A stretch of 64,000 bases of DNA, from the NCBI GenBank assembly GCA_002706885.1, contig PAKY01000001.1:1-64000 (forward strand), written 5' to 3'. This stretch comes from Phycisphaerae bacterium. Its GTDB lineage: Bacteria > Planctomycetota > Phycisphaerae > Phycisphaerales > UBA1924. Shown piece after piece: positions 4,437 through 62,008 of the stretch (positions within the stretch are counted from its first letter, which is position 1; each line of letters opens with the position of its first letter). The translations under genes and the position numbers were made by a program. The notes beneath the pieces were generated by a model that saw only the letters and a program-made list of their open reading frames with translations, ran no database searches and was not told the DNA's origin.

Positions 4437-4540
4437 CTCACCACCGAGGGCACGGAGTTCACGGAGGGATCACGGAGAAGATCGTCTCTCCTCGCCCTCT
4501 CCGTGTCGTCTCCGTGAACGCCGCGCCCTCCCGTGGTGAG
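4437..4540. repeat. Large imperfect inverted repeat of the 'CACCGAGGGCACGGAG' type
   Basis: The left arm (4437 to about 4485) reads CTCACCACCGAGGGCACGGAG and continues with TTCACGGAGGGATCACGGAGA. The reverse complement of the right arm (about 4492-4540) reads CTCACCACGGGAGGGCGCGGC followed by GTTCACGGAGACGACACGGAGA. The two arms can fold into one long hairpin of about 45 bp with mismatches. This is the interspersed 'cacggag' element common between genes of planctomycetes and some other bacteria. It lies between the dockerin-like gene and the prepilin-like gene upstream of it. Confidence 0.8.
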
Positions 4541-4544
4541 TGAC

Positions 4545-5378
4545 CTACCTGGCCAGAGCCGGATCCATCCGGTTGACCTGAAACAACGACGACGTCCGCA
4601 CACGGAAGCCGTCCCACTCCCAACTCGACCTGTCTGTCTCCACCCGATAGACCTTCCCGAGCGCAAGCGACTCCGCGTGCCCGTCGAGGAAGCCCCAGTT
4701 CGTCTTCTCGTCGTACGTCGAACCGGTCTGCACCTCGGCGCCCTCCGACGGCCGCCCGCCCTTCGCCGAGACCGTGTCGATCTGCACGTTCGCCGCCACG
4801 CGCTGAGGAGTTGTCCCCGGGAGCGACGCGGTCACCCAGTTCTCAACGTGCGGATGATCCGAACCCGCGAACTGACCCGCCCACGTCATCGTCAGGAACT
4901 GCACCGTTGACGACGGCATAGGGATCTGCCCGAGACGCCTGTATCCCTTCTCCGAATCGGGCGGAACGCTCGTCAACCAGTTGTTCACGCCGTAACTCGT
5001 CAAGCGATACTGATCGCTCGAGGGCGGGACCGCCACGCCCGAGCCGCCGAGCGCTTCGGGCCAGTGGGGGCTCCGATCGAGCGGGCTCTTCGCAATCAGC
5101 CCGGCGCCGTACTCCTGAAGCGTGGTGATCCAAGCAACCTCGAGGTCGCCGTGCGAACCGCCGTGGCTCAGACCAACATCGATCAGCGTGCCGTCCGACG
5201 CGTCGGCGTACATCGTGCTCGCGATCTCCATCGATCGCACGTTCGCCAGGCACGACGTCGCCTGCGCCGCGTGACGCGCGGAGCCCAACGCAGGCAGCAG
5301 GATCCCGATCAACAGCGCGACGATCGCGATGACCACCAGCAACTCGATCAGCGTGAACGCCCGTCGAATACGAAGCAT
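4545..5378 (-). CDS. Prepilin-type (type II secretion/type IV pilin-like) protein, paralog 1
   Basis: A 277-residue pseudopilin-like protein. The N-terminus [20 protein letters not shown] is a class III prepilin signal, with cleavage expected before Phe8 and the conserved Glu at +5. The hydrophobic helix runs to about residue 30 ([17 protein letters not shown]). The body is a globular domain with [28 protein letters not shown] and a terminal [20 protein letters not shown] block. The next gene on the same strand is a clear paralog with the same blocks, so the pair arose by tandem duplication. No pilus assembly gene is in the window. It is probably exported and processed by a prepilin peptidase encoded elsewhere. 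Confidence 0.88.
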
Positions 5379-5498
5379 CGCAAGCCTCCGACCGACGCCG
5401 AGCCCCGGCGACGGACAGATGCTATTGCGAATGCATTCTCAATACAAGAGCCGACTGAGCATGATTTCGACTTTCGTTGCCGCGGCCTCAGAGATCCC

Positions 5499-6320
5499 TC
5501 AATTGGCGATCGAAGGGTCCATCCGATTCCGCTCGAACACCGACGACCGAAGCGGCCGCAGCCCGCTCCACCGCCACGCCGACGAGTTCCGGACGAGGTA
5601 CACGTCGCCGAATGCGAGCGTCGCTGCGTGGCCGTCGAGGAATCCCCAGTTCGACTGCTCCATCGAGTTCGACGCCGTCGCGATCTCGGTGACCACCGAA
5701 GGTGGTCCGCCGATCGACCGCGCTGCGTCGATCTGGGCCTGCGCCGCCGCCGCCGCCGGCGGTCCGCCCAGGGTCACGCTGAGCCAGTTCTCGACGTGCG
5801 TGTGATCAGACCCCGCGTACCCGCCCGTCCATGCCATCGAGAGGAAGTGAACCGTCGACGACGGACGCCACACCGATTCGATCCGCGTGTACCCCCGCTC
5901 GCCCCCCGGCGCCGCGCTCGTCAGATGGTTGTTCACGCCGTAGCTCGTGAGCCGAACCCCGTCGGCGGTGTTCAGCGCGGGCAGCCCGTCCCCGCCGCTG
6001 TCGATCGGCCAGTGCGGGCTCGCGTCGAGCGGGCTCCGAAGCGCGGCGTCGGTTCGGTAGTAGTCACGCATCGTCGTGATCCAGGAGTCCGCGAGCGTCG
6101 CGTGACGAAGCCCCACATCGGGCAACGCCCCGCGCCGATCCGTCGCGTACGCCGAGGTCGCGATCTGCATCGATCGCACATTCGAGACGCAAGCGAGCAC
6201 ACGGGCCGATCGCCGCGCCTCAGCGAGCGCAGGCAGCAGGATCGAGACCACGACCGCGACGATCGCGATCACGACCAACAACTCAACCAGCGTAAATGCC
6301 GCCGAGAACCGACGGGCCAT
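5499..6320 (-). CDS. Prepilin-type protein, paralog 2
   Basis: A 273-residue paralog of the adjacent downstream protein. The N-terminus is [20 protein letters not shown], a class III prepilin leader with Glu at +5. The shared blocks are LPALAEARRSARVLACVSNVR, SYGVNNHLT, MAWTGGYAGSDHTHVENW and [20 protein letters not shown]. Between these blocks the two paralogs diverge. The 120-base gap separating them has no clear terminator, so they may be cotranscribed. It is likely a surface or periplasmic pseudopilin; its partner secretion system is not visible here. Confidence 0.88.
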   Translation of the reverse strand: MARRFSAAFTLVELLVVIAIVAVVVSILLPALAEARRSARVLACVSNVRSMQIATSAYATDRRGALPDVGLRHATLADSWITTMRDYYRTDAALRSPLDASPHWPIDSGGDGLPALNTADGVRLTSYGVNNHLTSAAPGGERGYTRIESVWRPSSTVHFLSMAWTGGYAGSDHTHVENWLSVTLGGPPAAAAAQAQIDAARSIGGPPSVVTEIATASNSMEQSNWGFLDGHAATLAFGDVYLVRNSSAWRWSGLRPLRSSVFERNRMDPSIAN

Positions 6321-6450
6321 GCGGGGACCTCCGAAGCGGCGAACGCCGCCTTCGAATCCCCAGCCTACCAGAGCGAGCTTGCGAATCGAAACGGATTCCA
6401 GCCCGGGCGCCGACGCCCCGATGGCCAGTGGCCGGTGCCCAGTCGCCTCC

Positions 6451-7200
6451 TCAAGCCATCGTCATCCCGCCATCGACGGTGATGACCTGGCCCGTCAGGA
6501 ACCCCGCGTCGTCGGAGGTGACGTACGAGACGGCCGCCGCGATGTCCTCGGCGCGCCCGAGGCGCTTCACCGAGATCGTCGCCTTCGCGCCCTCGAGGAC
6601 GGCCTCGGGCAGATCCTTGGTCATGTCGGTCTCGATGAACCCGGGCGCCACGACGTTCGCCGTCACGCCCTTCGACCCGAGCTCCCGCGCGAGCGTCCGC
6701 GTCAGGCCGACCAGCCCCGCCTTGCTCGCGGCGTAGTTCGCCTGCCCCGCGTTGCCCACCAGCCCGCTCGTGCTCGCGATGTTCACCACGCGCCCGAACT
6801 TGCCCTTCATCATCGGACGCGCCGCGGCGCGGCACGCGACGAACGCGGAACGCAGGTTCACCCTGATCACTTCGTCGAACGCCTCGTCGTCCATGCGCAG
6901 GATCAGGTTGTCCCGCGTGATGCCCGCGTTGTTGACGAGGATGTCGAACCGCCCCCGCTCCTTCGCGACCGTCTCGACCGCGCCCGCGAGCGACTCGCCG
7001 TCGCCCACGTCCACGACGCAAACCGACGCGGAGCCGCCGTTGGCCTCGATCGTCGCCTTCAGGTCGTTGAGCGGCGCTTCGCTGCGCGAGGCGAGCACGA
7101 CGTGGCGCCCGTCGGCCGCAAGTCGCTCTGAGATCGCGCGCCCGATGCCGCGGCTCGCGCCGGTCACGAACGCCACACGCTGATCACTGTTCTCTGTCAT
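6451..7200 (-). CDS. fabG: 3-oxoacyl-[acyl-carrier-protein] reductase
   Basis: An NADPH-dependent reductase of the fatty-acid elongation cycle, cytoplasmic. At 249 residues it has the usual length of short-chain dehydrogenases. The cofactor motif TGASRGIG (residues 13-20), the NNAG motif (90-93) and the catalytic set Asn115, Ser143, Tyr156, Lys160 (YAASK) are all present, and the C-terminus (GQVITVDGGMTMA) is typical of FabG. Its start codon overlaps the stop of the upstream lipoprotein gene by ATGA (7197-7200), so translation is coupled. Together with fabD upstream it forms a fatty-acid operon. Confidence 0.96.
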   Translation of the reverse strand: MTENSDQRVAFVTGASRGIGRAISERLAADGRHVVLASRSEAPLNDLKATIEANGGSASVCVVDVGDGESLAGAVETVAKERGRFDILVNNAGITRDNLILRMDDEAFDEVIRVNLRSAFVACRAAARPMMKGKFGRVVNIASTSGLVGNAGQANYAASKAGLVGLTRTLARELGSKGVTANVVAPGFIETDMTKDLPEAVLEGAKATISVKRLGRAEDIAAAVSYVTSDDAGFLTGQVITVDGGMTMA

Positions 7201-8243
7201 GGCGCCACCACGTAATCTCGAGCCTCGCTGACCGGAATGCCGTACGCCGCCGCCACCGCCGAGATGATCTGCTCGTCGCTGATCGCGGCGGCGAGCGGGC
7301 CGCCCGCGGCGCGGATCGCCGCGACGTGCGACCGCCCCTCCTCGGGGTCGAGCCGCTTGCCCTGCTCGTTTTCTGTCTTCCCACGCTCGTAGAGCGACTT
7401 GAGCTCGCTGGCCGACTTGCCCGTTGTCTGGGCGAAGCGCTCGTAGATCGTGTCGTCGTTGACCTCGATGCCGAGGCCCTTGGTGAGCTGACGCGCGACC
7501 CCGATCACGAAGAACACCTCATCGGGCTCGCTCAGACCGCTCGCGGCGCCGGCGAGCGCGTCGGTCGCTCCCGCGGCCGCGGCCTCCGAGCCGAGACGGG
7601 TCGGGGCGCCCGAGCCGCCCGCGTTCTCGTACTCGACGAGGCTCATGCCGTCCCACTCGCCCGCGCTCGCGCGCTCCGCGTCGCCGATGTCCGCCGAGCC
7701 ACCGAACGCCCAGCTCGAACCGGAACGCTCACCCTCCCAGCGGAGGAGATACGCGCCGTCGGGCGACTGCATCGCCACCACCAGGGTTCCCGCGTTGGCC
7801 TCTGCCTCGTGAGGGGGCGACTGATCGAGATAGACGATCCGAGCGGCCTCGAGGTCTTCCGTGGCCTCGTACCACGCGCCGTCGCCCGTCATCGCGTCGA
7901 GCGTCTGGCGGGCCGAATCGGTCATCAGCTCCGACGCGGCGAAGTCGTCGCCCGCGACGAGAGCGCCCGTGAACTTCGTAGCGGCCTCGAGGAGCGAGCG
8001 GTCGTTGATCTCGATGCCCGGGCCGAGCGTGACGCGATCGTCGACGTCGATCGAGCGAAACGCGGCCATCGCGTCGATCGGATCGGGGATGATCGGCTCT
8101 GCGGCCTTCGGGGGCGGCGGCGGGGGTGGCGGCGGTGGCGGAGGGGGTTCCTCGCCGCAGCCGAGCGCGAGCAGCCCGGCGATCATCACCGCGCCGCCCG
8201 TCAGAGCCAGAGCCATCCGTCCGCGATCAAGCGGGCGTGTCAT
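7197..8243 (-). CDS. Proline-rich lipoprotein of unknown function between fabD and fabG
   Basis: A 348-residue protein with a hydrophobic N-terminus and a probable lipobox (LLALGC, Cys about residue 29; Ala at -3 is not ideal), followed by an uninterrupted run of about 13 prolines. The remainder is acidic and globular, with helical stretches that include repeated EIND/EVND phrases and a C-terminal ISEARDYVVAP. I do not recognise the family. The gene overlaps the end of fabD by 17 bases and fabG by 4, so it is fixed in the middle of the fatty-acid operon. An alternative start is Met10, which gives a cleaner signal peptide. It is probably anchored to the outer face of a membrane. Confidence 0.75.
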   Translation of the reverse strand: MTRPLDRGRMALALTGGAVMIAGLLALGCGEEPPPPPPPPPPPPPKAAEPIIPDPIDAMAAFRSIDVDDRVTLGPGIEINDRSLLEAATKFTGALVAGDDFAASELMTDSARQTLDAMTGDGAWYEATEDLEAARIVYLDQSPPHEAEANAGTLVVAMQSPDGAYLLRWEGERSGSSWAFGGSADIGDAERASAGEWDGMSLVEYENAGGSGAPTRLGSEAAAAGATDALAGAASGLSEPDEVFFVIGVARQLTKGLGIEVNDDTIYERFAQTTGKSASELKSLYERGKTENEQGKRLDPEEGRSHVAAIRAAGGPLAAAISDEQIISAVAAAYGIPVSEARDYVVAP

Positions 8244-9201
8244 GCGTCACCACCTTCGTCTGCTTGTCGATCCGTCGCATCAGGCCGGCCAGCGTGCGCC
8301 CCGGCGCGAGCTCGAACGGATCGCCCTCCACGTTGTTCAGAAGCCATTGACAGTTCGCGGCCCACCGCACGGGGCTCGTGAGCTGCTCGACGAGTCGTTG
8401 ACGGATCGTCACCTCGTCGCGCAGGTGCGGCTCGCCGCTCGCGTTGCTCATCACGGGGCAGCGTGGCTCGGCGATCTCGACCTCGGCGAGGGCCTTGCCG
8501 AGCTCGTCCGCGGCGGGGGCCATCAAGGGCGAGTGAAACGCGCCCGCGACCGACAGGCGGGTCGCCTTGAGACCGACCTCGCCCGCGACGGTCTCGGCGG
8601 TGTCGCACGCGGCGGACGAGCCGCTGATGACCACCTGGCCCGGGGCGTTGAAGTTCGCGGGAACGAGCACGAGCCCGTCTCCCTCGGTCCGCTCGAGCGC
8701 CTGGTCGCAGACTTCCTGGGCGGAAGCTTCGTCGGCGCCGATCAGCGCAACCATTGACGACGGCGTCGCTTCCGCCGCGGCCTGCATGGCCCGCCCACGG
8801 AGGGCGACGAGGCGGAGACCGTCCTCGAAGCTGAGCGAGCCCGCAATGTGAAGGGCGGTGTATTCGCCGAGGCTGAGGCCCGCGGTCGCGGCGAGGGGGG
8901 CGGTTTCCGGCTCGTGGCCCGCGATGGCACAGACGCCGTGCCAACTCGCGATGCTTGTCACGTAGATGGCGGGCTGGCTCACGTCGGTACGGTTGAGCTT
9001 CTCGACGGGGCCTTCGAAGCAGACCTTGCTGAGAGGGGCGCCCGCGATCTCACGAAACTCGTCGCCGAGGATCTCGTCGGCGCGGGCGAAGATTGCCTTG
9101 GCCTCGGTGGAGGCGTCGAACCAGCCCTTGCCCATCCCGACGGACTGGGCCCCCTGTCCGGGGCAGAGCACGATCATCGGCGAAGCGTTTCCGTTCGTCA
9201 T
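8227..9201 (-). CDS. fabD: Malonyl-CoA:ACP transacylase
   Basis: Transfers malonyl from CoA to acyl carrier protein, supplying chain extension in fatty-acid synthesis. At 324 residues it has standard length. The motifs are GQGAQ (residues 15-19), the nucleophile Ser110 in GLSLGEY and the catalytic His223 in AGAFHSPLM. The open frame extends further upstream, but the upstream codons do not resemble FabD. The ATG at 9201 has no Shine-Dalgarno sequence; a TACCAT hexamer lies 6 bases before it, which suggests a leaderless transcript. The gene follows the cobalamin-riboswitch operon on the same strand after a gap of 50 bases without an obvious terminator, so some read-through is possible. Confidence 0.94.
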   Translation of the reverse strand: MTNGNASPMIVLCPGQGAQSVGMGKGWFDASTEAKAIFARADEILGDEFREIAGAPLSKVCFEGPVEKLNRTDVSQPAIYVTSIASWHGVCAIAGHEPETAPLAATAGLSLGEYTALHIAGSLSFEDGLRLVALRGRAMQAAAEATPSSMVALIGADEASAQEVCDQALERTEGDGLVLVPANFNAPGQVVISGSSAACDTAETVAGEVGLKATRLSVAGAFHSPLMAPAADELGKALAEVEIAEPRCPVMSNASGEPHLRDEVTIRQRLVEQLTSPVRWAANCQWLLNNVEGDPFELAPGRTLAGLMRRIDKQTKVVTHDTPA

Positions 9202-9207
9202 TGAGGC

Positions 9208-9213
9208 ATGGTA
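9208..9213 (-). promoter_or_regulatory. -10 element (TACCAT) of a probable leaderless fabD promoter
   Basis: TACCAT ends six bases before the fabD ATG, which would place the transcription start at or next to the start codon. No convincing -35 box is visible. Confidence 0.4.
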
Positions 9214-9251
9214 CTCGCCCGGGTTGGCTGTGGATCGCGGATTGGTGGACA

Positions 9252-10070
9252 TCAACGCCAACCGTCGGCGATCTCGACGTAGTACGGCCCTGCGTGCGTC
9301 CCGATGGAGCCGACGCCAAATTCCGGCGCGACAACCCACCCGTTCTCGGCGCCACGCGCCGCCGCTGAACCATCGACCGCTACCGCGACCGTGGCTTCAC
9401 CGCCGTGGCGGAAGCTCGTCGTGGGCGCATCGTTCCGAGACCACGACCCGCTCCAGGGGTCGAAGAGCTCGGGCGGATCGAGGAGAGCGGTCGAGCGGCC
9501 CGACGCGCCGACAGGAAGGAGCGTGTCGGCGAATGCGAGGAGCGTGCTGGGGCGAAGAACGTCCGATAGCCGTCGCCAAGGGCGATCGCCGATGGGCCCC
9601 CACTGGCCGCCCCAGCCGGGCGTCTTGGGTGGGCAGAGGCCGTAGCCGTTGTAGCCGTAGGTCGTGGTCAGCTCGCTGGTCGCGGTCTGCGGGGTGTAGG
9701 ACCCCCAAGGCTGCGACGGACACTCGTAGATCGAGTTCTCGCCGAGCGCGGCGTCGAGGTAGGGCGTGATGAAGCCGCGAGAGCGGTCGACATGCCCCGA
9801 GAATCGCCCGTCGGAACCGAACCAGTAGACCAAATCCTCGCCCGGCTCGATGTCGGGGGACTCGAAGTAGGCGAGCGGCATGGCGCGGTCGTCGAAGTCG
9901 TTGGCGTACATGGTCCACGCGAGGCCCATCTGGCGCACACCTGACATGCACGCGATCGTGCGCGCCGAATCGCGGGCGGCGCCGAGGGCGGCGAGCAGGA
10001 CACCGAGAAGGAGGGCGATGATCGCGATGACCACGAGGAGTTCGATCAGGGAGAACGCGCGTCGGGTCAT
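9252..10070 (-). CDS. Pseudopilin-like protein at the end of the cobalamin-riboswitch operon
   Basis: A 272-residue prepilin-type protein. The N-terminus [20 protein letters not shown] is a class III leader with Glu at +5, followed by a hydrophobic helix and a globular domain. Near the end is RHGG...VAVDGS, with ten residues between His and Asp-Gly. That resembles the His-x9-Asp-Gly motif of planctomycete prepilin-like proteins. The ATG at 10070 overlaps the stop of the beta-propeller gene (ATGA, 10067-10070), so it is the third gene of a tightly coupled operon. It differs in sequence from the pair at 4.5-6.3 kb. It could display or export the operon's other products; this is inferred from context only. 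Confidence 0.87.
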   Translation of the reverse strand: MTRRAFSLIELLVVIAIIALLLGVLLAALGAARDSARTIACMSGVRQMGLAWTMYANDFDDRAMPLAYFESPDIEPGEDLVYWFGSDGRFSGHVDRSRGFITPYLDAALGENSIYECPSQPWGSYTPQTATSELTTTYGYNGYGLCPPKTPGWGGQWGPIGDRPWRRLSDVLRPSTLLAFADTLLPVGASGRSTALLDPPELFDPWSGSWSRNDAPTTSFRHGGEATVAVAVDGSAAARGAENGWVVAPEFGVGSIGTHAGPYYVEIADGWR

Positions 10071-11584
10071 CGCTGGCCCCCCTCCTCGCAGGGGGTGGCG
10101 TTCGAGGCCTCGGCGATGAGGTCGGTGGCGATCTCGCCCGCGACCGCGCTGTCGAGAGCGAGTTCTCCAAGGCGATCGATCACGAAGAACACGCCTTCGC
10201 AGGCGGATGGGCCGTCCGTGCGTCCGTACGCGAAGAGGCCGTTCGGGCCGATCGAGTAGATCGCTTCGGTCCCCATCGCGGGCGAGGCGCCGGCGCCCGG
10301 GGCACGGGAGACCACGGTCGGCGTCGAACCGGACAGGTCGATCGCGACCAACTCCGTGTAGCCCGGGAAGAGACCGCCCGACGCAAGGACACCCGCGTAG
10401 GCCGTTGTCACGCCCTCGGCGGTCACGACGAGGGGTTGGTTCGTCCAGCCGCCGACCGTTTCGCCCGCGTCGACGGAGTCGTAGACGAGCGACGCTTCGG
10501 ATCCGTTGTCCTCGAAGACCTGAATCGACGGCGCGCTGCCGAAACCGAAGATGCCGCCGCTGAGCAGCACGCGGCCGTCGGGAAGGGCGACGGGGATCGA
10601 CGTCGTTCGGTTGCACGGCGTCGTCCAAACCACCTCGCCCGTGGCGAGAGCAAGCTTGACGAGTCTCGCGGAGTCACGGCCACCGTTGAAGTCGTAGGTC
10701 GCGGCGTACACAGCGCCGTCGCGGATGGTCACGCCTCCGAAGAACGCGTCGTCATCGGCGGCCGCGGTGTCCCAGAGCATCGGGTTTGCCGACCCATCCG
10801 CAGACGCGTCGAAGCAGACGACGCGACCCCCCCGACTCTGTAAGTTTCCCGAGGTCGACACAACGACGCGACCGTCGGCGTAGGCGGGCGTCGCCCCGCT
10901 CATCGCGTGGTTCAGTGGCGCCCGCCACACAAGCTCGCCCGGCTCGAACGGGTTCGCGAACTCGTCGAAGGGATCGATGTTGATCGCGTAGAGCGAGCCT
11001 CCGGCGCCACCCGCGTAGAAGCCCTCGTAGTCGGTGATGAAGAGCCTGTCCGCGCGTCCCAGGTCTCGGGTGATGGTGGGCGACGCGTTGACGACGTCCT
11101 TGTCGAGTTCGAATCGCCACCGCTCAGCGCCGGTCGCGACGTCGAACGCGATCACCTCGCCCCTTGCGCTGCCGGGCGCCCCAGCGGCGACGTAGACCGC
11201 CGCGGTCTCGCGATCGATGGCGGGGGATGACCATGAGTCGAGCGGCAGATTGGGGAGATCCGCGCGCCAGCATTCGAGACCGGCGCCAGCGTCGATCGCC
11301 CAAAGCCGAGCGGGAGCCGACGCGTTCTGCGAGCTGATGGCGAAGACACGCCAGCCATCGGCAACGGCCGAGGATTGCCCAACGAAGCGAACGTCCTCGG
11401 CAACGGTCGGATCACTCGCGGGGAATATCCATGCCGGCATGTCGAAATCGAACGCGGGCGCTTCGCGAATCGTCACCGTCGCCGTGTTCGATGGATCTCG
11501 CGCAAGAGAAAAGTGCTGGGCCGCCGCGACCGTGGGGAGGCACGCGGCGGCCAGCACTGTGATGGGGCCGAAACGGTCAGGCAC
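10067..11584 (-). CDS. Secreted PQQ-type beta-propeller protein (cobalamin-riboswitch operon)
   Basis: A 505-residue exported protein. The GTG at 11584 is preferred: it gives a signal peptide (PDRFGPITVLAAACLPTVAAAQ), has GGAAAG upstream and overlaps the preceding gene by only 8 bases; a longer ORF runs further upstream. The mature part has PQQ/WD-like blades, for example LWAIDAGAGLECWRADL, VIAFDVATGAERWRFEL, LYAINIDPF and KLALATGEVVWTTP, each a Trp-containing beta repeat. Enzymatic metal or PQQ residues are not evident, so it may bind a ligand rather than catalyse a reaction. Bacteroides BtuG, a B12-binding surface protein, is also a beta-propeller controlled by cobalamin. The riboswitch upstream makes a cobalamin-binding role attractive but unproven. 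Confidence 0.85.
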   Translation of the reverse strand: MPDRFGPITVLAAACLPTVAAAQHFSLARDPSNTATVTIREAPAFDFDMPAWIFPASDPTVAEDVRFVGQSSAVADGWRVFAISSQNASAPARLWAIDAGAGLECWRADLPNLPLDSWSSPAIDRETAAVYVAAGAPGSARGEVIAFDVATGAERWRFELDKDVVNASPTITRDLGRADRLFITDYEGFYAGGAGGSLYAINIDPFDEFANPFEPGELVWRAPLNHAMSGATPAYADGRVVVSTSGNLQSRGGRVVCFDASADGSANPMLWDTAAADDDAFFGGVTIRDGAVYAATYDFNGGRDSARLVKLALATGEVVWTTPCNRTTSIPVALPDGRVLLSGGIFGFGSAPSIQVFEDNGSEASLVYDSVDAGETVGGWTNQPLVVTAEGVTTAYAGVLASGGLFPGYTELVAIDLSGSTPTVVSRAPGAGASPAMGTEAIYSIGPNGLFAYGRTDGPSACEGVFFVIDRLGELALDSAVAGEIATDLIAEASNATPCEEGGQR

Positions 11585-12356
11585 GCCGGCGCTTTCCGGC
11601 GAGCAGACCACCGACCCCCACCAATACGAGCGTCCCCGGTACGGGGATCGCGCGGACATCGGCTAGCGCGTCGATCTCAGGGGTTACACCTGAGCCAAAT
11701 GGGTTTGAGATACGGACATACGAGACGCTGGAGAGCCCGATTGAGGCGATATCGATACCCAAACCCCCACCGGAGCCCGCATAGCCATTGACGATGTCGT
11801 CAAAAGATGCGCCCGATGCATCGAAGTTCGGGTCGACGGGGCGCGTGAAGTCGGTGGGCGTGCCATCGAGGTTGAAGGCGAGGGTCGGGAAGCCGCCGTC
11901 CGCTTCGGCGCCCGTCACCTGAAAGAAGTTGACGCCATCGGCGCTGAGCTCGATGACACCGCCTTCTGTCGAGAGCGGGCCGGCGATGCCGTTGGGGAAG
12001 TCGAGGTCGAAGTAGAACGCGTTGCCGAAGATGAGCAGGTCGATCCCGAAGGGGTTCAGGGCGTCATCGGTGACGGCTTCGTCGAACGCGAGCGTGAGCG
12101 AGCCGCCCTCGCCAATCGAGACCGTCTCACCCGCGCCGAAGGACGGGTTGAAGGGGGTGACCGGACCGCCGAACATGCTTTCCGGCGCCGTTACGCGGGT
12201 CGGGGACCCGAGGGCGGCGGTCGGATCGGTGAAGCCGCCCGCGGGATTAGAACCCCGAACGTAGTTCACGACCGTGTCGGCCCAGGGGTCGCCGACACCA
12301 CCGGAAGCCGCGACGACCGCGCACGCGAGGCCCACGAAACTCATCGATACCTTCAT
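11577..12356 (-). CDS. PEP-CTERM-like surface protein, first gene under the cobalamin riboswitch
   Basis: A 259-residue exported protein. Residues 1-20 form a signal peptide (MKVSMSFVGLACAVVAASGG). The body is beta-rich, with ALGSPTRVTAPES, VSIGEGGSLTLAFDEAV and DLLIFGNAFYFD, a pattern I associate with small 'cell surface proteins' found beside TonB-dependent B12 transporters in other phyla (memory, not searched). The C-terminus IPVPGTLVLVGVGGLLAGKRRRA is a PEP-CTERM-like sorting tail: Val-Pro motif, hydrophobic segment, Arg cluster. It begins 205 bases after a cobalamin riboswitch and has GGAG six bases before the ATG. The next gene overlaps its end by 8 bases. Confidence 0.88.
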   Translation of the reverse strand: MKVSMSFVGLACAVVAASGGVGDPWADTVVNYVRGSNPAGGFTDPTAALGSPTRVTAPESMFGGPVTPFNPSFGAGETVSIGEGGSLTLAFDEAVTDDALNPFGIDLLIFGNAFYFDLDFPNGIAGPLSTEGGVIELSADGVNFFQVTGAEADGGFPTLAFNLDGTPTDFTRPVDPNFDASGASFDDIVNGYAGSGGGLGIDIASIGLSSVSYVRISNPFGSGVTPEIDALADVRAIPVPGTLVLVGVGGLLAGKRRRA

Positions 12357-12560
12357 CTCAGACTCCGAACGGCTCTCTCGCCGTCATAGCCCGGGCGGCT
12401 CCTCCGGCCACGCGGGCTTGTTGTTCGCCGCGGTTCGCGCGCGACGACCCTCGGGGGTTCAACTCGACCTTCGCGGGGCGTGAATCGGAGGAAGCGGCGT
12501 GCGGAGGGGCGCACGACACCGCCGCCGAGCCCCTTACGCGAGGGCCGACAACAGCGTCGA

Positions 12561-12757
12561 TGGCAGGTCTTCCGGCTTCGGGCTCGGCGAGACAAGCCTT
12601 CCCGACGGGGCCCCTCGTGAACCGGGGCATGCGTCAGTGGCCGGGTCGGGCTTTGGCGGATGTTCGCCTCGGCCGTCCCCCATGGGTCTCGCGTCATCGC
12701 CCTACACGGCGGCGCGTCCGCGGTGGCTTCTCACCACACTTCCCTCTTGACCCGCCG
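12561..12757 (-). ncRNA. Cobalamin (adenosylcobalamin-class) riboswitch
   Basis: Read on the minus strand, the element has the full set of B12-aptamer landmarks in order: GGGAAGTGTGGTGAGAAGCC (from about 12744), GCCGCCGTGTAGGGCGA (the CGCAACTGT-like region), GCCACTG, GGGAAGGC, and the B12-box end GAAGCCGGAAGACCTGCC (ending 12562). The closing stem pairs 12749-12756 with 12562-12569, with one G-U pair. It is transcribed toward the PEP-CTERM/beta-propeller/pseudopilin operon and should repress it when cobalamin is plentiful, as in known cobalamin riboswitches. Confidence 0.93.
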
Positions 12758-12790
12758 GGCTGGAGCCGCGACGGGACCATCAACGGGTGG

Positions 12791-12820
12791 AGCGTACCCG
12801 AGCGAATCGACCTTGGTCAA
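12791..12820 (-). promoter_or_regulatory. Sigma70-type promoter of the cobalamin-riboswitch operon
   Basis: On the minus strand TTGACC (12820-12815) is followed after 18 bases by TACGCT (12796-12791). A start near 12784 would lie about 30 bases before the aptamer. The same -10 sequence, TACGCT, occurs before the SAM riboswitch at 30 kb. Confidence 0.6.
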
Positions 12821-12992
12821 TCAAACGATGACGGAATGAGGCGATCGGAGTGGCGAGGCGGCAATTTTCGCGCACCTTGGATCGGGGGTCTGGACAGCCC
12901 GACCGCGAGCCGCTATCTTCTGCAACTGAGACTCAGTCGCAGTGTGGCGATCGAGTCGGGTATGCAACAACTCATCAAGACCGGAGAGAGTC

Positions 12993-13649
12993 ATGATCAC
13001 CATGCGCACCACCGTCGCCCTCGCCGCCATCGCGGGCGGAGCCACCATCGCGATCGCTCAGCCCGTGAGCCCGTTCACCGAGGACTTTGAGAGCGGCCTT
13101 TCGGGCTGGACGGCGAACAACGGCACGCAGACGCTCGCGACGCAGGGCATGAACAGCTTCGCCCAGGCGACGAGCACACTCGACTCGACGGGGTTCGGAG
13201 CGGTGAACCTGCTCTCGGGCAACGCGATGAACGGCGCCTCGGGCGGCGCGTTCATCGGTGACTACACCGCGAGCAACATCGTCCGTGTGACAGCGGACGT
13301 TCGTCACGGCGCCGCGGGCCCGCTGACGTTCGCGCTTCGCCTCGCGACGGCGGGGAACTTCCCGGGCGCGGTGATCCTGGACTTCACGCCTGTGTTCGCG
13401 GGCAGCGACTTCACGACCATCAGCTTCGAGCTGAACGGCGCGGACATGGTGATCCCCGAGGGCCCGTTCAACCCGGCGACCGACATCTACCCGTTCATCG
13501 GCAACGTGCAGCTCCTCGTCGCGGGCGACGAGTCGCTCGACGGGACGCAGGTCACGGTCGATATCGACAACATCCGCGTGATCCCGGCGCCGGCTGGCGC
13601 TGGCGTGCTCGCGCTGGCGGGCCTCGTCGCGACGCGTCGTCGTCGCTGA
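12993..13649 (+). CDS. Secreted protein with PEP-CTERM-like tail
   Basis: A 218-residue exported protein. The ATG at 12993 follows GGAGAG by four bases, with a second ATG at 13002. Residues 1-26 are a signal peptide ending near AIAQP. The body begins FTEDFESGLSGW and reads as a single carbohydrate-binding/jelly-roll-like beta domain, with repeated aromatic-poor beta strands and a terminal VTVDIDNIRVIP. The tail IPAPAGAGVLALAGLVATRRRR matches the PEP-CTERM pattern for exosortase-type sorting; no exosortase gene is in the window. It is transcribed divergently from the cobalamin-riboswitch operon and ends at a strong terminator. Confidence 0.85.
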   Translation: MITMRTTVALAAIAGGATIAIAQPVSPFTEDFESGLSGWTANNGTQTLATQGMNSFAQATSTLDSTGFGAVNLLSGNAMNGASGGAFIGDYTASNIVRVTADVRHGAAGPLTFALRLATAGNFPGAVILDFTPVFAGSDFTTISFELNGADMVIPEGPFNPATDIYPFIGNVQLLVAGDESLDGTQVTVDIDNIRVIPAPAGAGVLALAGLVATRRRR

Positions 13650-13684
13650 GGCGCTCGCTTCGCATCAGGAAGATTCACAACGAG

Positions 13685-23856: not shown

Positions 23857-25227
23857 GTGGAAGCTTTCGAATACAGGCAGGGCGATCTCTACTGCGAGAA
23901 CGTGCAGGCGATGGACATCGCCACGCGTTTCGGAACGCCGACGCTCGTCTACTCGGCGCACGCGCTGACGACGGCGGCCAAGCGGTACCACGACGCGTTC
24001 GGCGCCATTGGTGTCGGTGTCATGTTCAGCGTGAAGTCGTGTCCGACGATCGGCTGCCTGAGGCGAATCGCGAAGGCGGGGCTCGGGATGTGCGCGACGA
24101 GCGGCGCCGATCTCGAGCGGGCGTGGTTGAGCCGCGCTCCGATGACGAGCGTCATGCTCGCGGGCGTCGCAAAGACGGACGACGACATTCGCGCAGCGCT
24201 CGACGGGATCTACAGCCCGCTCTTCCAGGGCGGCGTGACGCTCGATGGGCGACCGCCCTACTACCGCGGACCGATCGGGTGGTTCATCGCGGAGAGCCAC
24301 GGCGAGATTGAGCGGATCGCTCGGGTGGCGAAGGGGCTACGGATCAACTGCCGGGTGGCGCTACGCGTGCGGCTTCCGAGCCTGGCGCCGCCGGTAGAGG
24401 GCTCGCGGGGTGTTGATTCGAAGTTTGGGATGCCCGCGGCGACGGCGCTCGACGCGTTCGATCGGTATCGGGATCTGCCGAACGTTTCCATATGCGGGCT
24501 GCACACGCATCTTGGCCCCGTCGCGACCACTCCCGAGCGGCACGCCGAGGCGGCGAAGGCGCTGAGCGAGCTCGCCCGCGAGGCGAAGGGATCCGGGCAT
24601 TCGATCGAGTTGATCGACCTCGGCGGCGGGTTCGCCCCGATCGGCGTGAGCGGGACGGCGCCGACCCCCGAGCGGTATGCGGAAGCGATCGAGCCGGCGG
24701 TGAAGTGGGCGATCGAGGAGGGCATCGGCGTGGTGGTCGAGCCTGGCTCGGCGATCGCGACCGCGGCGGCGACGCTGTTGGTGCGCGTGCTCGACGCCAA
24801 GCCCCTCGAGGACCGAGTGCTGCTCATCACCGACGGGGGGCTCAGCTCGTCGGACGCGAACCGACGGGCGGACGCGGTGCGGGTGGTGTGGCCCGCGAGC
24901 GTCGATCCCGGCAAGGAACCGCCGCGCGAGGATACAGAGCGGATCGACCCGCGCGGGATGCACTGGTACGACGTCACGGGGCCGACGGGCTGGGACGACG
25001 ACGCGATCGCGGGTGGGCGTTTGATGCCGCCGGTCGACGCGGGAGGCGTGCTCGCGGTGTTCAGCATGGGCGCGTCGCCGCAGCGTTCGCTCGCGTACGA
25101 CCACGCGACCTCGCTGCCCGCGGAGGTGATCGTGGACGGGCTGCGACCGACGCTGCTCCGGACGAAGCGCGACATGTGCGATCGGATCGCGGCGGAAGCC
25201 GTCGCGCTCGACACCTCGGTCGAATGA
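23857..25227 (+). CDS. Fold-type III PLP decarboxylase homolog (LysA-like) lacking the catalytic Cys motif
   Basis: A 456-residue cytoplasmic protein with an alanine racemase-type barrel and a C-terminal beta domain, like diaminopimelate/ornithine decarboxylases. The PLP lysine is Lys60 (MFSVKSCPT); the SADLERAW, GLHTHLGP, DLGGGFAP and VEPGSAI blocks match the family. The C-terminal GPxCExxD motif, which carries the catalytic Cys from the second subunit, reads GPTGWDDD here, and the following GAY motif reads GASPQR. Diaminopimelate decarboxylase activity is therefore doubtful. The start is GTG. A gene for a hydrolase-ATP-grasp fusion begins ten bases after the stop, so the two are probably cotranscribed. 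Confidence 0.82.
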   Translation: MEAFEYRQGDLYCENVQAMDIATRFGTPTLVYSAHALTTAAKRYHDAFGAIGVGVMFSVKSCPTIGCLRRIAKAGLGMCATSGADLERAWLSRAPMTSVMLAGVAKTDDDIRAALDGIYSPLFQGGVTLDGRPPYYRGPIGWFIAESHGEIERIARVAKGLRINCRVALRVRLPSLAPPVEGSRGVDSKFGMPAATALDAFDRYRDLPNVSICGLHTHLGPVATTPERHAEAAKALSELAREAKGSGHSIELIDLGGGFAPIGVSGTAPTPERYAEAIEPAVKWAIEEGIGVVVEPGSAIATAAATLLVRVLDAKPLEDRVLLITDGGLSSSDANRRADAVRVVWPASVDPGKEPPREDTERIDPRGMHWYDVTGPTGWDDDAIAGGRLMPPVDAGGVLAVFSMGASPQRSLAYDHATSLPAEVIVDGLRPTLLRTKRDMCDRIAAEAVALDTSVE

Positions 25228-25237
25228 TCGCTTCGGC

Positions 25238-27697
25238 ATGACACGGCGCCGCTGGGCGATCATCCTCATCGTGCTCGGCGTCTACGCGGCGCTCGTGATC
25301 GCCTCGCACGCGCTGGCTCGACCGAGCGATCGACCCGCAGACACTCCGTCGCAAGCGGTGACGACAGCGATCTTCGATCGCGACGGCGTTCTTGACGGCG
25401 GCGCGGCCGCCGTCGCTTTCCACCGTTGGCGCCCGACCCAGGAGGTAGTCGGCGAGCCGGTGCTTCTCCTTCATGGGTCACCGGGTGGCCTCGACAACTT
25501 TCGATCGCGGGGCGGGCTCGCCGATCAGATCGCCGCCACCGGCCGCGAGGTCATCGCGTTCGACCTGCCGGGGTTTGGACGATCGACGCTCCACGTTCCC
25601 GACCTGTCGACGCGGGCGCACGCGAGGTACGCGCTCGCAGCGCTCACGGAGCTCGACATCGAGCGGGCACACGTCGTCGGATGGTCGATGGGCGGCGGCG
25701 TGGCGCTCGACATGGCGGAGATCGCGCCCGATCGCGTGGCGAGCGTCACGCTGCTCGGCGCGATCGCCACGCAGGAAACGGAGGGCTCGGGGAGCTACCT
25801 GTTCGAGCACGCGAAGTACGGGCTCGGCCTTGCAGCGTTCTGGGCGTTGCAGAACCTCACGCCGCACTTCGGAGCGGTTGACATCGGTCGCGAGCAGACC
25901 GCGTGGCTCCACAACTTCTTTGATACCGACCAGCGTCGGTATCGCTCAATCCTCGAGACCACGGATACACCGATCCTCATCGTCCATGGGCGACGGGACT
26001 TCCTCGTGTACGACTGGGCAGCGGAGCGGCACCATGAGCTTGCGCCGCGCAGCAGCCTGGTAATGACACCGTACAGCCACTTCTTCCCGTTCTCCGCCAC
26101 ACAATCGGAGCACGTTGCGACGATCCTCGCGCCGTTCATTGAGCGGCACGACGACCCGTCCGCGGTGGCGATCGGCGAACGGGTCGATCTCGCGCCGGTG
26201 GGCGATCGCGGATGGTGGGGGTGGTTCACATCCCTGGTACGCGTCGCGCCCTGGTGGGCGCTTCTGGTTGTCATCGTGGTCGTCGGGCGCTGGCGGTTCG
26301 ACGCAACGGCGGGGTTGTGCGTGTTGCTGGCGATCGACCTGTCGCTCGATGGCGGGCTGATGGCGTTCGCGTTGCTCGTTGCTTCACTGACCCGCTCACG
26401 GATGTGGTGGGAGCGAGCAGGCGTCGTGCGTTGGGCGGCGCGGGTCGTCTGGCCGGTCCTCATTGCGCTGGCGCTCGGGCCGGCGAAGGCGACGGCGGTG
26501 ATGTCGGGGTGGCATCGCGAGATCGACGCAATCAGCGCGATACCGGCTTGGGTCGTGATCACGGCAACGCTCGCGGTTGGTCGGCGGCTCTGCACGCGCG
26601 TCGCGCGACAGCGTCTCCTCGCAGGCTCTCGGCGCATCGCATCGCACGAGTGGTGGCCTTCGTGGGCGCTGTACGCGCCGGTGGTTCCGGTCATGGCGCG
26701 CGCGGCGTGGCGTCACGGCGGGCCACTGGTCTGGACGTGCTCGAATCCGGGGGTCGAGCCGGGCGGGGGCGTGATCGGCGAGCGGAAGAGCGAGATCCTC
26801 GAAGGATTCGACCAGACGGACCCGCGCGTGCTCGCGTCGATGGTGCTGAGGCGGACCGGTGATCTTGAGGACGACGTCCGTACCGCGGACACGCTGATCC
26901 GAGCGGAGGTGATCGGCGGGTATCCGTGCATCGTGAAGCCCGAGTCGGGGTACCGGGGCGTGGGTGTGCGGGTCGTTCAAGGGATTGATGACCTCCGGGC
27001 CACGCTGCGGGTCGCGCATCGGGACCTGTGCGCGCAGCGGTATCACGCGGGGCCGCATGAATTCGGCGCCTTATGGGCGCGCGAGGTCTCGACCATCGGG
27101 CATGAAGACGCGGCGCCAGGGCCGCACGGGCGCGTGATCGCGGTCACTCGGAAGACGTTCCCGGTTGTCGTTGGCGATGGGCGGCGCACGCTTCGCGCGT
27201 TGATCCTTCGCGACCCTCGGTACCGTGTGCAGGCACGGATGTTCTTCGAGAGGCGGCGTGAGCGGCTCGACGAGGTGATCCCGCGCGGCGAACGGGTCAC
27301 GCTCAGCGCGACTGGGAATCATGCGCAGGGAAGCATGTTCTCCGACGGGGCGGACCTGCTGACGCCCGACCTTGAGGCGTCGATCGACGAGGTGATGCGG
27401 GCGTGGCGCGGACCGAACGGCGAACCGTTCGACTTCGGGCGTTTCGACGCGCGGTACGCGGACGAGGAAGAGCTGCGAGCGGGGCGCGGCTTTGCGATCA
27501 TCGAGCTCAACGGCGTGACGAGCGAGCCGACGAACATGTACGACCCATCGAAGCCCCCGACGTGGGCGTGGAGGTTGCTCGCGATGCAGTGGCGAGCGAT
27601 GTTCGAGATCGGCGCCCGCCGCCGGTCCCTAGGCAGGAAGCCGATGACGTTCGGCGAGATCGTCCGTGGCGTCGCCTCGGATCAGAACGTGGAGTGA
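25238..27697 (+). CDS. Alpha/beta-hydrolase - membrane - ATP-grasp fusion protein
   Basis: An 819-residue three-part protein. Residues 7-27 are a membrane anchor. Residues about 70-310 are an alpha/beta hydrolase: oxyanion HGSPGG, nucleophile Ser150 in GWSMGGG, Asp254 in HGRRDF and His281 in YSHFFPF. Residues about 335-490 contain about five hydrophobic segments. Residues about 515-800 form an ATP-grasp carboxylate-amine ligase-like domain: Lys567 in YPCIVKPESGYRG, a VVGDGRRTL motif as in cyanophycin-synthetase-type ligases, and metal-binding Glu756/Asn758 in IIELNGVTSEP. The fusion suggests ligation and hydrolysis of amide or ester bonds at the membrane. The substrate is unknown. The upstream PLP enzyme homolog is probably its partner. 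Confidence 0.87.
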   Translation: MTRRRWAIILIVLGVYAALVIASHALARPSDRPADTPSQAVTTAIFDRDGVLDGGAAAVAFHRWRPTQEVVGEPVLLLHGSPGGLDNFRSRGGLADQIAATGREVIAFDLPGFGRSTLHVPDLSTRAHARYALAALTELDIERAHVVGWSMGGGVALDMAEIAPDRVASVTLLGAIATQETEGSGSYLFEHAKYGLGLAAFWALQNLTPHFGAVDIGREQTAWLHNFFDTDQRRYRSILETTDTPILIVHGRRDFLVYDWAAERHHELAPRSSLVMTPYSHFFPFSATQSEHVATILAPFIERHDDPSAVAIGERVDLAPVGDRGWWGWFTSLVRVAPWWALLVVIVVVGRWRFDATAGLCVLLAIDLSLDGGLMAFALLVASLTRSRMWWERAGVVRWAARVVWPVLIALALGPAKATAVMSGWHREIDAISAIPAWVVITATLAVGRRLCTRVARQRLLAGSRRIASHEWWPSWALYAPVVPVMARAAWRHGGPLVWTCSNPGVEPGGGVIGERKSEILEGFDQTDPRVLASMVLRRTGDLEDDVRTADTLIRAEVIGGYPCIVKPESGYRGVGVRVVQGIDDLRATLRVAHRDLCAQRYHAGPHEFGALWAREVSTIGHEDAAPGPHGRVIAVTRKTFPVVVGDGRRTLRALILRDPRYRVQARMFFERRRERLDEVIPRGERVTLSATGNHAQGSMFSDGADLLTPDLEASIDEVMRAWRGPNGEPFDFGRFDARYADEEELRAGRGFAIIELNGVTSEPTNMYDPSKPPTWAWRLLAMQWRAMFEIGARRRSLGRKPMTFGEIVRGVASDQNVE

Positions 27698-57994: not shown

Positions 57995-59938
57995 CTACGC
58001 GCCGGGACGCCGACCTTCGTACATCGCCAGCCCACGAACAAGCGAGACACACGCGAGGATGAGGATCAGCGTGAAGGGCAGCGCCGCGGCGATCGCGGCC
58101 GCCTGGAGCGCGTCGAGTCCGCCCGCGAGGAGCAGCACAGCGGCGACTACACCTTCTGCGAGCGCCCAGAAGAGGCGGGTGCCGACGGGCGGATCCGGGT
58201 TGCCGCCCGACGCGATGATGTCGATGACCATCGACGCCGAATCGGACGAGGTCACGAAGAAGAGCACGATGCAGAGCGTCGCAACGCCGACCGCGGTCAG
58301 AACGAGCCAACGAGGGCCGAGGGCGCCGTCGAGCAACGCGTAGAGCACGGTCGGGAGCGTCGCGATGGTCGTTGCGTGTGAACCGTCGAGCACGGGCGCG
58401 CCGAGATATTCGACGGCCGTCATCGGCTTCTCGGTCGCCGCGAACGACCCTTCGAACGTGTTCTGCGGCGACGGCACGAACGGGTGACCCTCGAGCGTCA
58501 CGATCTGGCCGTCGTCGACCTCGACGGGAACACCGTTGGCGACGGTTCGAAGCGTTCCGTCCTCGTCACGCTCATAGACGCCGCCATAAGCGAGTCCGAC
58601 GAGCGTGCCGTCCTCCGCGATCGCGAAAGCTCCACCGGCCGAGCGGGCTTGCACCTCGTACACCGGCAGCGCCTCATCGGGATCGATCGCGTCGACCATG
58701 TCGCCGTCCTCCGCCGCATCGACGACCGCGGCGTTGTACGCGTCGCTCGCGGCGAGGTGGCGGGTGTGTTGCCTGAGCGCGGTTGAGCCAAAGGCGGTGA
58801 GCCAGACGATCCCGACGGCCGTTGGAACCAGCAGGACGCCGATGACGAACTCGCGGATCGTGCGACCGCGCGAGACACGGGCGATGAACATGCCCACGAA
58901 CGGCGACCAGGAGATCCACCACGCCCAGTAGAACACGGTCCACCCATTGAGCCACGTGCGGCCCTGGACGCTCGTCGCTCCGGTCCGGAAGGAACTGAAC
59001 GGGAGGAGTTGGAGGTAGGCGCCGGTGTTTTCGACCGCCGAGCCGAGAAACGCGACGAGACCGCCACCGAAGATCACGATCACCATCAGGATGCCGGCGA
59101 GGACCATGTTCGCCTCGCTCAGCCTGCGGATGCCCGTTCCGAGCCCGAGAACGACCGACACCGTCGCGATCGCGGTGATGCCCGCGATGAGCAGGATCTG
59201 AATGGTCCGATCGATGGGCACGTCGAAGAGGAACGCGAGGCCGGCGTTGACCTGTTGGGCGCCGAGCCCAAGCGAGGTGGCGACGCCGGTGAGCGTCGCG
59301 ATGATCGCGAGCGTGTCGATGGCGTCGCCTGTCGGTCCCCAGACGCGGTCACCGAGCAACGGGTGCAGGAGCGAGCGAAACCCGAGAGGCATGCCGCGCC
59401 GGAAGCCGAAGTACGCGAGCGCCAGCGCGACGACGGCGTACAACGCCCACGGATGCAGTCCCCAATGGAAGATGGTCACCGCCATGGCGACCCGCGCGGG
59501 GTCGAGCCCGTCGGCGAAGCCCGGCGGCGTGTCGTTGAAGTGGTAGATCGGCTCGGCGACGCTCCAGAACACGAGCCCGATGCCCATCCCCGCGCTGAAG
59601 AGCATCGCGAACCAGGTGAGGCGCCCGAACTCCGGCTTCTCATCGTCGCGCCCGAGCTTGACATGCCCGAACCGTCCGACGGCGAGCCAGATCGCGAAGC
59701 CGAGGAATCCCGTCATCGACGCGACATACAGCCAGCCAAAGCGGCTGCCGATCCAATCGCGGGCCGCGACGAACGTGCTCTGGACATCGTCGGCGGGAAA
59801 CACGATCGTCAGGGCGACCAGCGCCAACACGATCACCGCGCCTGCCGGGAAGACGACCGGGTGCATCTCGAAGTGCGGCCCGAGCGTTACCTTCGGCAGC
59901 TCGGGGACCTCCATCTCCGAGTTTCGATCGTCGCTCAT
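57995..59938 (-). CDS. BCCT-family (betaine/choline/carnitine) transporter with a large extra loop
   Basis: A 647-residue inner-membrane transporter. The glycine stretch SAGMGIGLVFW (about 115-125) and the aromatic ligand box FYWAWWISWSPFVGMF (about 336-351; Trp-Ala-Trp-Trp-x-x-Trp) are the hallmarks of BetP-type carriers for glycine betaine and related trimethylammonium compounds. Between residues about 391 and 520 an extra hydrophilic, acidic segment of roughly 130 residues interrupts the normal 12-helix plan; ordinary family members have only a short loop there. AAGGGG precedes the ATG. It follows the two betaine-biosynthesis methyltransferases on the same strand, so the locus combines synthesis and uptake. 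Confidence 0.94.
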   Translation of the reverse strand: MSDDRNSEMEVPELPKVTLGPHFEMHPVVFPAGAVIVLALVALTIVFPADDVQSTFVAARDWIGSRFGWLYVASMTGFLGFAIWLAVGRFGHVKLGRDDEKPEFGRLTWFAMLFSAGMGIGLVFWSVAEPIYHFNDTPPGFADGLDPARVAMAVTIFHWGLHPWALYAVVALALAYFGFRRGMPLGFRSLLHPLLGDRVWGPTGDAIDTLAIIATLTGVATSLGLGAQQVNAGLAFLFDVPIDRTIQILLIAGITAIATVSVVLGLGTGIRRLSEANMVLAGILMVIVIFGGGLVAFLGSAVENTGAYLQLLPFSSFRTGATSVQGRTWLNGWTVFYWAWWISWSPFVGMFIARVSRGRTIREFVIGVLLVPTAVGIVWLTAFGSTALRQHTRHLAASDAYNAAVVDAAEDGDMVDAIDPDEALPVYEVQARSAGGAFAIAEDGTLVGLAYGGVYERDEDGTLRTVANGVPVEVDDGQIVTLEGHPFVPSPQNTFEGSFAATEKPMTAVEYLGAPVLDGSHATTIATLPTVLYALLDGALGPRWLVLTAVGVATLCIVLFFVTSSDSASMVIDIIASGGNPDPPVGTRLFWALAEGVVAAVLLLAGGLDALQAAAIAAALPFTLILILACVSLVRGLAMYEGRRPGA

Positions 59939-59977
59939 GCGACCCCTTGATCTCTTGAAGGCCCGTTGGCGCGCGAT

Positions 59978-61674: not shown

Positions 61675-62008
61675 ACGGCCCCCAATACTCTTTAGCTCAC
61701 CCTCACACACTCGACCAAGCACTATAGAGGCGCGCGTTGTCGCTTCTCGATGTGCGCTCAATAAAACCGAAATCGGTCGTTTTCCCGGAGAAAACCCGCG
61801 ATCGTTCCACTCATCATGAACGCCGTTTCATCGCGTGGTCGTGCAACGAACGCTATCGGACGGCCCTTCGCACACGCCCGAAACGGCGCTCCTGTCGATC
61901 CCCGAAAGACGTTCGCGACAGGTCGCAGGCCGGGTCGGCGCCCAGATCCGCCAAGCGGGCATCACACCTAACATGCCATCGAGAACACCGATACACCAGG
62001 AGCCCGAC
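61675..62008. other. Divergent promoter region between the betaine operon and the MBL-rhodanese gene
   Basis: There are 334 bases without a credible gene. On the minus strand TATAGT (61726-61721) is a possible -10 box for the betaine operon; its -35 box is unclear. Around 61761-61785 the sequence AAAACCGAAATCGGTCGTTTT is an imperfect palindrome that could be an operator. The right half before 62009 ends in an AGGAG ribosome binding site for the plus-strand gene. Confidence 0.5.

Follow-up and report, generated by a model that had tools for sequence, protein, structure and literature searches.

The first 64,000 nucleotides of contig C1 (positions 1-64000) of a planctomycete draft genome (3.57 Mb, ~91% complete; label G000), called the window here, carry two adjacent genes whose products are designated LYS and FUS. 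FUS is a single chain made up of an alpha/beta-hydrolase, a membrane part and an ATP-grasp domain; LYS has the fold of diaminopimelate decarboxylase (LysA) and has lost catalytic residues of that enzyme. The evidence set out below points, with a little less than even confidence, to FUS as a membrane ligase/acyltransferase for amino-acid lipids and to LYS as its LysA-derived, non-catalytic partner. The principal finds are this pairing of a pseudo-LysA with FUS and the hydrolase-VTT-ATP-grasp family to which FUS belongs. The LYS reading frame opens with GTG and its stop ends at 25227; FUS starts with an ATG at 25238, leaving 10 bases between them, so that the coordinates, the spacing and the 819-residue length of FUS given in a preliminary description of the locus are correct. 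Comparisons were made with 163 genomes of the same family as the window genome (its named close relatives are mostly uncultured Phycisphaerales) and with more distant loci; gene absences in genomes rest on profile searches of contigs.

The catalytic residues of both enzyme domains of FUS are fully conserved. The hydrolase scores above the PF00561 cut-off (94.8 bits, E 8.5e-27), and its triad, Ser150, Asp254 and His281, is invariant in 19 orthologues, as are Lys567, Glu756 and Asn758 of the ATP-grasp domain; from family knowledge we take the lysine to bind ATP and the glutamate and asparagine to bind metal. The preliminary description had seen an intact triad, membrane helices and the union of ligase and hydrolase in a single membrane protein, and it stands on each of these points. 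By fold (Foldseek) the hydrolase lies nearest to esterases; it also matches S33 aminopeptidase models. The ATP-grasp region falls below Pfam cut-offs by sequence and is modelled with a predicted local distance difference test score (pLDDT) of 93.7 (86.6 for FUS as a whole, with a weak patch within the membrane part). The closest structures are cyanophycin synthetase (Foldseek E 7e-11), GshF-type enzymes and D-Ala-D-Ala ligase (Ddl), and a profile search of the PDB agrees. What FUS shares with cyanophycin synthetase and Ddl is the ATP-grasp fold and its ATP and metal residues, to which cyanophycin synthetase adds the GDGxxT motif. It differs from them in being anchored in the membrane, in domain order and in its low identity (~20%), and it reaches 26.5 bits, against 877, on the cyanophycin synthetase model NF010623.

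Hydrophobic segments of FUS lie at residues 3-29, 329-354, 356-384, 394-422 and 429-449, and the window FUS on its own does not match the VTT (DedA) profile, PF09335. Order-level relatives lacking the hydrolase (L071-L073) carry an intact VTT domain at the same place, and in the fusions of five genomes (G021, G001, G016, G026 and G028) the profile spans the full domain at E 1e-45 or better. Several fusions of the window type match it at both ends only; when 11 short forms, the window FUS among them, are compared with VTT as a group (hhalign), the match has a probability of 96% and E 1.2e-9, with the centre unmatched. The ancestral FUS family carried VTT between hydrolase and ATP-grasp, and the membrane part of the window FUS is most likely a VTT remnant with its core deleted. 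An intact VTT is found here in relatives within the order and in another phylum, but the window clade lacks the centre of the domain, which makes transport by the FUS membrane part doubtful. Positively charged residues are found at the N-terminus and again beyond the last helix, so that by the positive-inside rule the N-terminus and the ATP-grasp domain are probably cytoplasmic, with the hydrolase outside.

FUS is not a one-genome oddity, a notion excluded by the presence of FUS-type ATP-grasp domains in 139 of the 163 family genomes; they are also widespread across the phylum. Twenty phylum-level loci, mostly outside the order, have either the hydrolase-VTT-ATP-grasp or the VTT-ATP-grasp arrangement, often following DinB and TANGO2/NRDE genes, and the three-domain protein recurs in Acidobacteriota records. 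FUS is accordingly a member of a hydrolase-VTT-ATP-grasp family that spans Planctomycetota and Acidobacteriota. The preliminary description was right about the fusion and missed both the VTT remnant and the spread over at least two phyla. A literature search returned no description of such a family, nor any paper pairing the terms 'VTT domain' and 'ATP-grasp'. Records labelled Bacteroidota hold a bare FUS-type ATP-grasp protein; in seven of these loci (L244, L245, L247, L248, L250, L257 and L258) it adjoins an NRDE gene every time and a DinB gene in six, so that the cluster is conserved from one phylum to another. Two loci of the Phycisphaerales type, L219 ('Cyanobacteria bacterium CYA') and L228 ('Leptolyngbya sp. 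PLA1'), probably come from mislabelled planctomycetes.

LYS is kin to the pyridoxal phosphate (PLP) decarboxylases (PF02784, E 4.3e-28; PF00278, E 9e-07). It resembles LysA in fold, aligns with it over its whole length, and retains the GGG loop and the conserved histidine of THLGP (residues 217-221); on the NCBIfam lysA model (TIGR01048), however, it scores 161.9 bits, below the cut-off of 297.9. The difference is concentrated in the active site. Residues 375-382 read GPTGWDDD in place of GPxCExxD, as the preliminary description had reported. When the eight proteins of this Cys-less kind are aligned with 26 canonical LysA from relatives, the C-E pair of GPxCE is present in all 26, and the motif in none of the eight (the protein of G023 has a cysteine at the aligned position, but in a poorly aligned stretch devoid of the motif). 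The Schiff-base lysine for PLP survives in the window LYS alone, as K60; in the other seven it is replaced, by Q in G164 and G165 and by D, E or S in the remaining five. EPGR has become EPGS in the window LYS, EPGW in five orthologues and RPGR in two; the window LYS is altered also at the GAY tyrosine and the HIGS serine, and five proteins have a shorter C-terminal sheet region. Loss of the cysteine is only one part of the change. The first proposal, of a PLP enzyme altered yet still at work, is not supported: the cofactor lysine has gone from seven of the eight proteins, the CE motif from all and the EPGR arginine from most.

The seven other Cys-less proteins, which came from the search of the 163 family genomes (G023, G058, G059, G060, G098, G164 and G165), form a single clade with the window LYS (support 100/99; the tree is midpoint-rooted, and no sister relation to LysA is claimed). 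All have full-length open frames, in eight genomes of five genera, and share a stretch, DxRAALDGxYSPxFQxG...PPYYRGP, that canonical LysA match only partly. The ratios of nonsynonymous to synonymous substitution rates (dN/dS) of close pairs are 0.15, 0.28 and 0.22 for LYS and 0.18, 0.20 and 0.35 for FUS (simple Nei-Gojobori estimates, with dS high in one pair). Since LYS is under purifying selection like that on FUS and is conserved throughout its clade, it is not a relic, and the idea of a decaying pseudogene was discarded on the same grounds.

Nor is there a pathway for LYS to serve as a decarboxylase of diaminopimelate (DAP), because DapA (PF00701), DapB (PF05173) and DapF (PF01678) are found in none of the eight LYS genomes by searches that do find them in some relatives. 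LysX, of the aminoadipate (AAA) route to lysine, is above cut-off in six of the eight; the window genome and G058 have none above it, possibly through draft gaps. The only other PF02784 protein of the window genome, on contig C58, is an arginine decarboxylase resembling SpeA (a by-eye assignment based on its length and sequence). LYS is the sole LysA-like gene found in the draft. The preliminary description would have given up its view had a canonical LysA been absent elsewhere and had LYS complemented a lysA mutant; the first half agrees with the draft, but DapA, DapB and DapF are missing as well, and G164 and G165 each hold a separate canonical LysA beside the Cys-less form. It is very unlikely that LYS makes lysine, and its candidacy as a working LysA was rejected on its residues, the missing pathway genes and those two genomes. 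Canonical LysA is retained at L119 (G165), L120 (G164) and L064 (G017), where DapA, DapB and DapF were not found.

In all eight genomes that have it, the Cys-less gene is the immediate upstream neighbour of FUS, and both are read from the same strand. A conserved association of the two had been anticipated, and its regularity puts the pairing beyond chance. In five of the eight the FUS start and LYS stop overlap by 4 bases (GTGA), an arrangement that usually means translational coupling, and LYS and FUS are probably co-expressed. In G072 the gene immediately before FUS encodes a canonical LysA, and G004 has one close to its ATP-grasp gene; LYS may therefore have arisen in place from a LysA at the FUS locus, although the tree does not nest it there. 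In most of the eight genomes an RlmN-like radical SAM gene comes first, before LYS. About a dozen relatives have such a gene ahead of LYS or FUS (L062, 12341-13555; L114, 8250-9599; L115, 7844-9013; L117, 10150-11448; and others); it may be the housekeeping RlmN or belong to the pathway.

The neighbours of FUS in relatives suggest what it might make. In G021, G001, G016 and G026 FUS comes after genes for a GH3 enzyme and an alpha/beta-hydrolase, the three apparently forming one operon, and GH3 is found near FUS in five further named loci (L210, L218, L224, L225 and L254). The window genome has adjacent GH3 and alpha/beta-hydrolase genes on contig C8, with DinB, a DUF2339 protein and NRDE. The apparent operon there (L148, C8:3001-19190; 4464-13658 within the locus) comprises what look by eye like a Lol-type ABC permease and ATPase, then alpha/beta-hydrolase, GH3, DinB, DUF2339 and TANGO2/NRDE; it is likely to serve the synthesis of acyl-amino-acid lipids and may preserve the genomic setting that FUS had originally. 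Ornithine lipid in Singulisphaera acidiphila is built by two enzymes: OlsH (Sinac_1599), of the GH3 type, forms N-acyl-ornithine, and OlsI (Sinac_1601), an alpha/beta-hydrolase, attaches the second acyl chain (PMC12493201). TANGO2 uses its NRDE motif to bind acyl-CoA (PMC11867700), and the acyl-histidine of Legionella is formed by an ATP-grasp enzyme, according to a review (PMC11631085). The N-acyltransferase domain of OlsB and OlsF (PF13444) was found in none of the 11 genomes examined, and aminolipid synthesis of that type was dropped from consideration. An amino-acid lipid ligase/acyltransferase is favoured for FUS because of this GH3/OlsI-type, TANGO2 and acyl-histidine context, together with the absence of an OlsB/OlsF-type domain. 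The likeness to OlsH/OlsI lies in the joint occurrence of GH3 and alpha/beta-hydrolase genes, before FUS in several relatives and, in the window genome, on C8; unlike that system, the present one has FUS and LYS in addition, and the main text of PMC12493201 names neither an ATP-grasp enzyme nor a decarboxylase. GH3 is likened to OlsH by gene type, and the hydrolase of FUS itself has no more than a distant relationship to that linked to GH3. The conjugation pathway proposed at the outset is plausible to the extent that relatives place FUS beside genes of GH3-type N-acyl-amino-acid synthesis; its other component, the altered PLP enzyme, is the part that finds no support.

A scheme consistent with these facts would have FUS span the membrane and combine two enzymes. 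On the cytoplasmic side its ATP-grasp domain would convert a carboxylate into the activated acyl-phosphate at the expense of ATP and then couple an amine to it; its hydrolase, probably at the outer face, would make or break an ester on the product, O-acyl transfer in the manner of OlsI being the best guess. The product would most likely be an amino-acid-containing lipid related to ornithine lipid, either an N-acyl amino acid or a lipid to which a further amino acid has been added. The ancestral VTT domain could have moved lipid across the membrane, a capacity that is doubtful where its core is missing, as in the window clade. LYS would be a former diaminopimelate decarboxylase whose catalytic residues were lost in a lineage from which the DAP route has disappeared, kept as a non-catalytic partner. 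Its simplest reading is that of a subunit binding an amino acid or of an amino-acid-binding regulator of FUS. The fuller version, in which LYS is a dedicated, translationally coupled non-catalytic subunit of a ligase-acyltransferase for a new amino-acid lipid, recruited for amino-acid recognition or regulation in a lineage that has abandoned the DAP route and the VTT core of its ligase, is offered with appreciably less confidence. The notion that a PLP decarboxylase might outlive its chemistry has a precedent: antizyme inhibitor is a non-catalytic paralogue of this kind. LYS resembles it as a decarboxylase-fold paralogue retained after loss of catalytic residues; it differs in that its putative partner would be a membrane ligase rather than a decarboxylase or antizyme.

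The domain architecture, the invariant catalytic residues of FUS, their loss from LYS, the strict linkage of the two genes and purifying selection are shown by the data; the chemistry and substrate class of FUS, its sidedness and the partner role of LYS are inferred. Several considerations tell against this assignment of FUS and LYS. The hydrolase of FUS may turn out to be an esterase and not a transferase. The nearest solved relatives of the ATP-grasp domain, cyanophycin synthetase and Ddl, make peptides, not lipids. The likeness of the hydrolases here to OlsI is one of gene type, the GH3 gene of the window genome is on a different contig (C8) from FUS (C1), and the link between FUS and GH3 is not obligatory, since several genomes with the ATP-grasp domain have no GH3 (the order-level G028, G032, G033 and G040). 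Contact between LYS and FUS is putative, and the window LYS, which keeps Lys60 and is the least eroded copy, might still hold PLP. It is the peptide-forming relatives that inspire the main rival, in which FUS would make peptides or a peptide polymer, a cyanophycin-like product or a cell-wall peptide trimmed by the hydrolase, with the membrane part a mere anchor. The ATP-grasp matches, by sequence and fold alike, and the S33 aminopeptidase hits are what such an enzyme would be expected to give; set against them are the esterase-like fold of the hydrolase, the descent of the middle domain from VTT, a lipid-handling fold, and the GH3, OlsI-like hydrolase, TANGO2 and (by eye) Lol-type ABC genes that neighbour it in relatives. 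We regard peptide synthesis as unlikely, though worth keeping in mind.

The alternatives for LYS fare less well than an amino-acid-binding partner of FUS. LYS as a PLP enzyme put to a new use, still active in decarboxylation or racemisation through a replacement catalytic residue and supplying FUS with an amine or amino acid, would account for the retention of K60, the THLGP histidine and the GGG loop in the window LYS, and for the canonical LysA at or near the FUS locus in G072 and G004; it is made improbable by the seven orthologues that lack the PLP lysine at the same operon position, by the changes at the EPGR arginine and GAY tyrosine in the window LYS itself, and by the five shortened C-terminal regions. 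The same two LysA neighbours would permit an origin in place, and so a functionless leftover linked to FUS by nothing but old synteny; purifying selection (dN/dS 0.15-0.28), full-length frames across eight genomes and five genera, a group-specific conserved stretch and the start-stop overlap render this very improbable. Least credible of all, and strongly disfavoured, is that LYS, the draft having yielded no other LysA-like gene, is the lineage's own diaminopimelate decarboxylase with a changed active site: the score of 161.9 bits against 297.9, the absent DapA, DapB and DapF, the separate LysA of G164 and G165 and the lost catalytic residues all speak against it.

If amino-acid lipid synthesis by FUS with LYS as its partner is borne out, it would define an unstudied family of hydrolase-VTT-ATP-grasp membrane proteins in at least two phyla, with the ATP-grasp domain and its DinB/NRDE neighbours extending to Bacteroidota. 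The family would plausibly complete or extend the newly found GH3 aminolipid route in planctomycetes, and the LYS clade would show plainly that in nature a PLP decarboxylase can lose its cofactor lysine and still be selected as a fixed genomic partner.

Table 1. Features of the LYS-FUS locus in window coordinates.
Feature	Position	Strand	Basis
LYS, Cys-less LysA-fold protein, 456 aa	23857..25227	+	Pfam/NCBIfam, PDB relatives, alignment with 26 canonical LysA
FUS, alpha/beta-hydrolase - membrane part (VTT remnant, most likely) - ATP-grasp fusion, 819 aa	25238..27697	+	Pfam, orthologue alignment, structure model
FUS first membrane helix, residues 3-29, begins Arg-Arg-Arg	25244..25324	+	hydropathy; model helix 3-26
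FUS alpha/beta-hydrolase domain, ~residues 74-291, triad S150/D254/H281	25457..26110	+	PF00561, invariant triad, Foldseek to esterases
FUS membrane part, residues 329-449: probable VTT/DedA flanking helices, central segment deleted	26222..26584	+	VTT profile comparisons, hydropathy
FUS ATP-grasp domain, residues 450-819, cyanophycin-synthetase-like	26585..27694	+	model, fold and profile matches

Other features of the window bear less directly on the pair. PADLOC matched neither LYS nor FUS, and a role in anti-phage defence was dropped on that account. The plsX-fabH genes upstream were considered as partners and given no weight: the arrangement is not conserved, and relatives have the RlmN-like radical SAM gene there instead. 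Downstream, pdxH and dnaB are in conserved synteny in several relatives and were not used as evidence. Farther along, at 57995-61761, a group of genes resembles, by eye, a BCCT-type transporter and two methyltransferases of glycine-betaine synthesis.

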